From: Sorangium aterium
Lineage (GTDB): Bacteria; Myxococcota_A; Polyangia; Polyangiales; Polyangiaceae
Direction of reading: 5' to 3'
Assembly (NCBI RefSeq): GCF_028368935.1
Contig: NZ_JAQNDK010000006.1
Coordinates: 124,001 to 188,000 of the forward strand
Length of the DNA: 64,000 nt
A program made the position numbers and the translations under genes. Shown one piece after another: positions 14,699-26,778 of this stretch; within the stretch, counting starts at the first letter, position 1, and each line of letters begins with the position of its first letter. The notes under the pieces were generated by a model. That model was not told the origin of the DNA and ran no database searches. It saw only the letters and a program-made list of their open reading frames with translations.

Positions 14699-17600
14699 CT
14701 AAAATTTTTCGCCTGGGCGCGCCCGCCATTGCCGTCTTTCGGGCTGCGCGGTCGGGGGAGCTGGCTTGATGCCGTATCGGAGCTGCGCCTGGAGCAGACC
14801 GCGGAGCCGCTTGACCTGGAAGCTTCGGGCCACCGCGCGCACCTGCCCGCTCCACGCTCCGAGCTGCTGGTCGGCTTCCTCGAGCCGATCGAGCTCGTTC
14901 AGCACCTGGGAGACGAGCCCTCTGTTGGCCAGCTCGACGAGCCGCGCCAGCTCCTGGGCCCGTGGGGCGGGGAGCGTGCAGAGCTCCTCGTCGGTCATCG
15001 AGGGCATGGTCACGGCCGCGCCCGGCCCTGCTTGGCGCTTCCACTCGAGCTGGAGCGTCGCTCGGAGCAGCTCCAAGAGTGCGCCGGCCTGCACCGGCTT
15101 GGGCAGAAAGTCGTCGCATCCGGCGCTGAGGCTCGTTTGCCGCTCGGCCTCCGAGATGCTGGCGGACGAGGCGATGATCGCGACTCGGGCGAGCTCGGGC
15201 CGTTGCCGCAAGCGCCGTGTCGCCTCGCAGCCGTCCATGCCCGGCATGGCCAGGTCCAACACGATCACGTCCGGTGTTCGCTCGACGGCCAGCGCGAGCG
15301 CCCGCTCGCCGCTGTCGGCCTCCAGCAGCTCGAAGCCCAGCGGCTCTAGCAAGTCGCGCAAGAGCGCGCGGTTCTCGGCCTTGTCGTCCACCACGAGGAT
15401 CGTGCGGCGCTCGCCCTCGTACCCGAGGATCGCCTCCCACGACAGCCCCGCGCTGGCCTTGGCCGCGGCCACCTCGAGCAGCCGGAGCGTCACCGTGAAG
15501 ACCGAGCCGTGGCCGAGCTGGCTATCGACCTCGATGCTCCCGCCCAGCCGCTCGATGAGCTTCTTCGTGATCGCCAGCCCGAGGCCTGTGCCCTCGGCGT
15601 GCCGCTTCTCGTCGCCGACCTGCTCGAAGGCCTCGAAGATGCACCCGAGGTGCTCGGGGGCGATGCCGGGGCCGGTGTCCTTGATCTGGAAGCGCACCGT
15701 GCGCCATCGGTCCTGCGGCGGCTCCTGCACCTCGACGCGCAACGTCACCCCGCCCTGCTCGGTGAACTTGATGGCATTGCCCAGCAGGTTGAGCAGCACC
15801 TGCATCAGGCGCTTCTCGTCGGCGCGCACCCCCAGCCGCTCGGGGCCGACACGCTCGTAAGCGAACGAGAGACCCTTCTCCACGGCGCGCACCCGGCAGA
15901 GGTTGGCCACGGTCCGGAGGAGCGTGGGCAGGTCGACCGCGGTCGGGCGCACGTCCATCTTGCCGGCCTCGATCTTGGCCAGATCGAGCACGTCATTGAT
16001 GAGCCCGAGCAGGTGCGTGCCGGCGGTGTGGATGATGCGGGCCGAGTCGGCGGCTTTGGCGGGCAGGTCGGGCAGCCGGCCGAGCAGCTGCGCATAGCCG
16101 AGGATGCTGTTGAGCGGCGTGCGCAGCTCGTGGCTCATGCTGGACAGGAACTCGCTCTTGGCGCGGCTGGCGTGGTCGGCCGTCTGCTTCGCGGCTTCCA
16201 GCTCGGCGGTGCGCTGCTCCACCTCGCGCGCCAGCCGCTCGCTGTAGGCCGAGAGCTCGGTATAGAACGTGGCATTCTCCACGGCCGTGGCCGCCAGCGC
16301 CCCGAGCAGCGTGACCAGCTCGACGCGCGCCTCGGGGAAGGCGTCCTGCACGCGCGGGTGCTCCAGGTACATCACCCCGGACAGGCGTCCCTGGTGCACC
16401 AGCGGCACGGCGAGCACCGAGCCGGGCCGGTGGGCGAGCAGGTAGGGGTCCTCGTCGAAGCGGCTGTCGCGCGCCGCCTGCCCGAGCACCACCGGCTCCT
16501 TGCTGCGCGCGACGTACTGCACCAGCGTCGCCGGCAGCCGCGTCGAGCCGGCGACGGGCTCGTTGAGCGCCAACTTGACCTGTCGGGGATTGACGGTGAG
16601 CAGCGCGGCGATGACGAGCTCGCCGCCCTGCATGAGGGCGAGCACGGCGCGCTCGGCGCCGGAGTGCTCGGCGAGCAGGCGGAGCATGCGGCCGACGAGC
16701 GAGCCGAGGTTTCGGTCGCCGGAGAGCGCCTGCGCGGCGCGCAGCGCGGAGGCGATGTCCAGGTAGGCATGGAGCGTGCGGTCGGTGATGGTCGTGCTCG
16801 TCGGCAGGGACGCCCCGTCCGGCGGCTCGCCCTCCGACGTGCCGGCCGCAAGGGCCGGGCGGCCCGAGGCCGCGATGCTGTCCGGGTAGCGCTGAACGAG
16901 CTGCGCGGCGGCGGCGAGCGCGCCCCAGCGCAGGTAGGCGTCGTGCGCGGCCGACAGATAGGCGCGGGCCAGGGCGCGCTGTCCGCGGGCGAGGCGGTGC
17001 TCGCCCGCCAGGCGCAGGCCGAGCGCCTCCGCGTCGATCAGGCCGTCATCGCGGGCCTGCTCGATGGTCCGATCGTACAGCCGCTCGGCCTCCTCGTGCT
17101 CTTCCCGGGCGCGGGCGAGGCCCGCCTCCATCAACAGGCGCATGGCCTCGAAGGTCTCGGGGCAGCTCTCGGCCCAGAGGGAGAGGCGCGCGCCGTGGAA
17201 GGCCAGCCGGTCCTCGAGCAGCGCGCGCTGCTCGGCGGTGGCGGTGGGGAGGGCATGCGCCCCGGCGACGCAGAGCGTGAAGGTGAAGGCGAGGAGCGGG
17301 GGGGTGCCCCACGACGCCTGCCAGGCCGGCTCGATGGCGAGGGCCGCCTCGATCGCCCGCGTGTCGGCGCCAAGGTGGAGCCCGGTAAAGCCCGCCATCG
17401 TACCGGCGTAGAAAAGCTGCGGTTTCACGCCCCGCACGTGCCGCGCGAGTTCCTCGAGCGTCTGCTCGACGGCATGCGCGGCCTGGGCCTGCGAGAGCGC
17501 GTCGACCGAACGGGCGAGAATGTCTCGAAACGCCGTGGCCATCAGGTCGCGGCAGGACATGCGGTCGAAGTCGCGCGCGACGCGATCGAGGTCGGCTCCA

Positions 17601-26778: not shown

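Follow-up and report, generated by a model that had tools for sequence, protein, structure and literature searches.

Background

Among cyanobacterial dual kinases of the HstK type (cbSTKIII), the accessible part of the paper that treats them includes an adjacent, co-transcribed pair, Alr0709/Alr0710 (PMC2176072). For myxobacterial two-component sets, the available part of another study reports lineage-specific duplication and changes in size that fall mostly in the N-terminal parts of His kinases (PMC4603909). Here we analyse a tandem pair of genes that, by its predicted domains, belongs to the known HstK-type architecture of dual Ser/Thr-His kinases. No description of this pair was found in the literature searched, most subscription journals being outside the scope of the search. 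Conversion between tandem paralogues is already known; what is new is a well-resolved instance of it in this pair.

Our main reading, to which we give a probability of roughly 90%, is that a tandem duplication was followed by repeated recombination between the copies (gene conversion), which would have overwritten short tracts while the other segments diverged freely. The mosaic structure itself is directly visible in the alignment, and from it we infer recombination as the cause.

Organization of the gene pair

The window, that is, the whole stretch of 64,000 nucleotides analysed, contains two genes, A and B, that lie head to tail on the minus strand in the ORF list. This agrees with the original prediction, which described two paralogues of about 1.9 kaa in direct orientation, 290 bp apart. 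The features are as follows.

12830..14677, minus strand: downstream partner gene, 615 aa as listed, with Response_reg - PAS - HisKA - HATPase_c (Pfam, blastn)
14699..20668, minus strand: gene A, a hybrid kinase of 1,989 aa (ORF, Pfam)
Domains of gene A (aa): Pkinase 6-256, AAA_16 296-484, TPR-like region, GAF 1323-1463, HisKA 1503-1569, HATPase_c 1617-1730, Response_reg 1757-1868
20669..20958, no strand: spacer of 290 bp between the stop of B and the start of A
20959..26778, minus strand: gene B, tandem paralogue of A, 1,939 aa (ORF, Pfam), with a putative ATG start at 26778 taken from the longest ORF

A and B are 90.4% identical over 5,709 aligned bases. According to Pfam, AAA_16, GAF, HisKA, HATPase_c and Response_reg are present in both genes alike, with GAF (PF01590) located between the two kinase domains and HisKA (PF00512) and HATPase_c (PF02518) in the C-terminal part. 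This arrangement suggests that the AAA/TPR and GAF modules control the His kinase, which would pass phosphate to the attached receiver and perhaps also to the receiver of the downstream gene. We infer that both A and B feed this same partner.

Single-copy relatives

A search of 108 family genomes with a 1.3-kb stretch of A (cut-off 1e-90) gave matches in five: the source genome itself, one genome of the same genus (G001, probably S. cellulosum So0157-2) and three genomes of a sister genus. Each of the three sister-genus genomes contains one full-length gene with an intact kinase N-lobe, and in all four relatives a homologue of the gene at 12830-14677 adjoins the hybrid kinase (blastn). Since the three sister-genus genomes share a single intact gene and the same neighbour, the single-gene state is probably ancestral. 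The genes that flank the block in the window (outside 12830-26844) were not found beside it in the stretches compared from G001 and the three sister-genus genomes, so the kinase block sits in different surroundings there. As for the order of the A/B duplication and the genus split, AU values obtained after rooting with more distant paralogues vary between regions and between root sets.

Near-identical tracts and the divergence around them

Synonymous divergence along the pair is far from uniform. For the whole pair Ks is 0.168; it rises to 0.23 in the TPR-like region and to 0.39 just past the GAF tract, and falls to 0.04 in GAF and to 0 in the receiver tract. That segments next to the tracts clearly differ, as had been claimed, is borne out by a range from 0 to 0.39. 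Three tracts stand out, each given below with its position in both copies.

15008..15495, minus strand: tract 1 in A, aa 1725-1887, the whole receiver, 0 mismatches (permutation, AU, HMM)
21214..21701, minus strand: tract 1 in B, 488/488 identical to the tract in A
16401..16765, minus strand: tract 2 in A (aa 1302-1423), covering the greater part of GAF, 3/365 mismatches against B (99.2%)
22607..22971, minus strand: tract 2 in B, counterpart of the GAF tract of A
18928..19129, minus strand: tract 3 in A (aa 514-581), located beyond the AAA_16 match, 2/202 mismatches against B
25128..25329, minus strand: tract 3 in B, counterpart of the post-AAA tract of A

Tract 1, which comprises the receiver domain plus about 30 and 19 residues at its two sides, is the longest identical stretch of the pair; the second longest, of 163 bp, lies in the GAF region, and the third has 142 bp. 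The earlier statements that this tract is identical base for base, third positions included, and that the GAF tract is about 99% identical are both confirmed, and tract 3 is newly found here.

Comparison with the single-copy genomes, as originally proposed, shows that the G001 gene differs from both copies in the receiver tract. Over all sites of this tract, G001 differs from either copy by 8.6% and the outgroups differ from the copies by 15-17%; at third positions the values are 10.4% for G001 against both copies, 20-25% for the outgroups and 0% for A against B. Because third positions of the receiver vary in G001 and the outgroups, synonymous sites are free to change there. Just C-terminal of tract 1, A and B differ at 20% of third positions, and the C-terminal tails have diverged. 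The third-position distance to G001 is 0.104 within tract 1, intermediate between the values of 0.076-0.095 for A and 0.116-0.152 for B around it, and it singles out neither copy as the donor.

With no difference in 488 bases, the 95% upper bound on A-B divergence in the receiver tract is about 0.6% (rule of three). Set against the 8.6% that separates it from G001, this value implies a conversion that is recent in comparison with the split of the species. Tracts 2 and 3, in GAF and after AAA_16, hold a few mismatches and are presumably older.

An identical segment could also arise if consensus building or polishing had written one receiver segment over the other, and the assembly is indeed a draft of seven contigs. 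However, the borders of the tract are strongly diverged (the 20% of third positions on the C-terminal side), so that short reads would separate the copies, the tract would fit within a long read of usual length, and the other tracts hold two to three mismatches rather than none. We therefore regard such an artefact as very improbable.

Tests for gene conversion

For the permutation test, we used 1,229 polymorphic sites from an alignment of A, B, G001 and G060 and performed 10,000 shuffles. In the receiver tract, A equals B at 92 polymorphic sites in a row (shuffle maximum 28) and at 37 silent polymorphic codons in a row (shuffle maximum 27). Tract 3 gives P=0.0044 with all polymorphic sites and P=0.0145 with silent codons. 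For the GAF tract, the silent-run permutation taken alone is non-significant (P=0.22).

The AU test, with region limits chosen in part after inspecting the data, indicates that the preferred tree changes along the gene. In the 5' part (20451-16810), the grouping of B with G001 has a value of 1.00 and that of A with B 0.00015. In GAF, A with B takes over (0.983 against about 0.023), and it does so again in the receiver (0.999); in these two tracts, therefore, the copies of one genome group together against the relative. B groups with G001 at 16400-16313 (0.937), and A groups with G001 in the linker-HisKA segment (0.946) and in the C-terminal tail (0.954). For the kinase C-lobe, AAA, post-AAA and HATPase regions taken alone, more than one tree remains for each.

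A four-state HMM to which no regions were supplied places tracts in which A equals B at 19129-18928, 16765-16401 and 15523-15008, the last being a slightly widened tract 1. By BIC, a three-state model (6293.4) is slightly better than the four-state model (6304.2); it fuses HATPase with the receiver, and its A=B-like state covers more and longer segments.

The claim of a recent conversion of the receiver region is thus strongly supported by the permutation test, the AU value and the distance of G001 from both copies. The same claim for GAF fares less well: the AU value and the unsupervised HMM speak for it and the silent-run permutation alone does not, so that the evidence is weaker than for the receiver, although conversion is still supported. 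Part of the low Ks in GAF reflects a slow synonymous rate there, because the outgroup distances are low too.

Selection on the protein or on codon usage, with no recombination at all, might be invoked for the identity, given that receiver domains are conserved and that synonymous divergence in GAF is low in every comparison. Such constraint does not fit receiver third positions that vary in G001 and the outgroups and not between A and B, nor a tree that switches to A with B in this domain. It is refuted for the receiver, where chance is excluded as well, in line with the original argument that purifying selection alone is insufficient, and for GAF it may hold in part; as an account of the locus it is extremely improbable.

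The single gene of G001

In the order of its informative sites, the single gene of G001 resembles B in its 5' part and A in its 3' part. It carries the 28-aa N-lobe deletion of B and a B-like TPR region, followed by the tail, the 3' end and the downstream neighbour of A. The change occurs at one place.

16262..16313, minus strand: switch from B-like to A-like in G001, at A aa 1452-1469, end of GAF (informative sites, AU on both sides)

The switch is confined to 51 bp just past the GAF tract. The gene is probably either a natural B/A fusion or the product of an assembly collapse. A fusion would result, in one step, from an unequal crossover located within the homogenised stretch or close to it, and such a crossover would remove one repeat unit. 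A collapse of a tandem pair during assembly, with no real deletion, is suggested by the position of the switch next to the near-identical GAF tract and by the accessible part of the So0157-2 genome paper, which states that contigs were corrected by fosmid end-sequencing (PMC3696898). However, the assembly is a single contig and the open frame runs unbroken across the junction, and we consider a collapse unlikely, if still a serious candidate.

Loss of the kinase N-lobe in gene B

The two proteins are not equivalent, a point that the original prediction overlooked. Gene A has a full Pkinase match (PF00069, aa 6-256, E 2.5e-34), whereas in gene B a deletion of 28 aa, together with divergence of the first 45 residues, makes the match begin only at profile position 74, and the N-terminal Ser/Thr kinase feature is incomplete. 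A retains the VLK lysine, HRD and DFG; B has lost the N-lobe lysine, and its DFG is replaced by DVG. At the latter position, A and G001 have DFG and three outgroup kinases (L125, L129, L130) have DFE.

These changes leave B unable to build a normal N-lobe for its Ser/Thr kinase, and B is a predicted Ser/Thr pseudokinase that still has His kinase and receiver motifs; the N-lobe is lost, and its kinase would accordingly be inactive. Without a normal N-lobe in B, A and B are unlikely to be redundant. Ka/Ks between B and G001 is 0.44 in the kinase C-lobe, against 0.15-0.24 among outgroups, and 0.38 in the AAA domain, against 0.13-0.26. Since the AAA domain shows an equal pattern, we make no claim of relaxed selection on the C-lobe.

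Tandem arrays elsewhere in the genome

The source genome (13.47 Mb, seven contigs) contains many relatives of A, at least 42 of which span at least 1,300 residues of A among about 150 listed of 165 matches. Two of these 42, C1:1660-6189 and C3:1895903-1900432, score equally; both lie at contig ends, which may overlap and hold a single gene. A scan of the genome_contigs collection gave relatives of at most 43% identity in the best segment, and in the plasmid collection no record covers 80% of the gene, the five partial matches listed being at 64-66%. Within the window, an open frame on the plus strand (30574-32640) matches the Ser/Thr kinase portion of the hybrid kinases with about 31% identity across 194 aa and is probably another Ser/Thr kinase.

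Some of the relatives form arrays of their own, one of which is the following.

G000:C1:2102993-2163000: tandem array with eight or more relatives in head-to-tail order, each about 2,000 aa long and mostly at 82-90% DNA identity (L131, L132, L136, L133, L137)

In a second array of four tandem relatives, on the minus strand from G000:C1:303952 onwards (L134, L135), one member has HKN in the catalytic loop where its neighbours have HKD; its Ser/Thr kinase is probably dead, which would make it, after B, the second of this sort within a tandem set.

In these arrays, silent runs survive correction in one of 21 pairs from seven of the eight members (member 2151505 was left out, as its chosen frame contains no His-kinase G2 box) and in none of six pairs from the four members, that is, in only one of the 27 pairs tested. 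The adjacent pair concerned shares a 377-bp identical stretch and a run of 60 silent codons; in the first member this run covers residues 491-730, around the end of AAA_16 and beyond it, and includes no receiver. A run test on all polymorphic sites, in which the second array was represented by three of its four members, yields many small P values and cannot separate conversion from uneven conservation.

These observations bear on the idea that conversion is directed by selection for an identical receiver (and GAF), with one output serving different TPR-like sensing regions. Tract 1 spans the entire receiver, A and B differ in the tail beside it and in the TPR-like region, and the REC-PAS-HK gene has kept its place downstream, all of which would fit. 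On the other hand, a single pair has tracts at three different places, of which tract 3, like the array tract, is at or after the end of AAA_16, receivers are not shown by any test to be enriched in tracts, and the G001 receiver differs from both copies, so that its sequence is not frozen. Tract positions in A/B and in the other array look unselective, and we hold targeting by selection to be doubtful for this pair. As a general rule, conversion targeted to one domain is rejected, since the only surviving run in the arrays lies outside the receiver.

Proposed history and its implications

Under duplication followed by gene conversion, the ancestral state would have been one hybrid kinase gene (Ser/Thr kinase - AAA - TPR - GAF - His kinase - receiver), followed downstream by the REC-PAS-HK partner gene, and the hybrid kinase gene would have been duplicated in tandem. 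Homologous recombination between the 6-kb direct repeats would then have overwritten short tracts repeatedly, the GAF and post-AAA segments earlier and the receiver most recently, while the remaining segments diverged freely and copy B lost its Ser/Thr kinase N-lobe. In G001, the same kind of recombination probably reached a full crossover and left one gene with the head of B and the tail of A.

The original prediction also proposed that, through conversion, the copies retain a common specificity of input and output. Shared input is contradicted by the divergence of the TPR-like region (Ka 0.155, Ka/Ks 0.69), and the diverged C-terminal tail, the missing N-lobe of B and the location of tract 3 and the array tract likewise argue against the proposal. 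The identical receiver may give the two copies a common output. The further idea that the pair has become a unit with two inputs and one output, in which one copy has turned into a pseudokinase with its own sensor region and both act on the same phosphorelay partner through receivers kept alike by recurrent conversion, appears improbable.

The pair offers a clean base-level case, with outgroups, of concerted evolution between tandem signalling kinases, to which an apparent natural crossover product is added. The fates of the domains are unequal: the receiver stays identical, and one copy drops its Ser/Thr kinase lobe. Should conversion prove to favour receivers, the case would have consequences for our view of how cross-talk is avoided or retained after the duplication of two-component proteins.

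Compared with what the accessible parts of the respective papers describe, the locus shares features with three known systems. Like HstK, A has an N-terminal Ser/Thr kinase, GAF and a C-terminal His kinase, and like that expanded family the pair combines a tandem origin by duplication with disagreeing domain trees; unlike HstK, A and B add AAA_16 and a C-terminal receiver, B is devoid of the kinase N-lobe, and intragenic conversion tracts are resolved at base level (PMC2176072). As in the esaG/tipC T7SS immunity genes, tandem paralogues recombine through blocks of high similarity, with loss or expansion of copies; those are immunity genes of firmicutes, whereas A and B are large myxobacterial signalling kinases, in one pair with few tracts (PMC9484751). 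In common with other myxobacterial two-component sets, A and B show duplication together with N-terminal change; for such sets, the available text raises conversion as a possibility and contains no worked case (PMC4603909).
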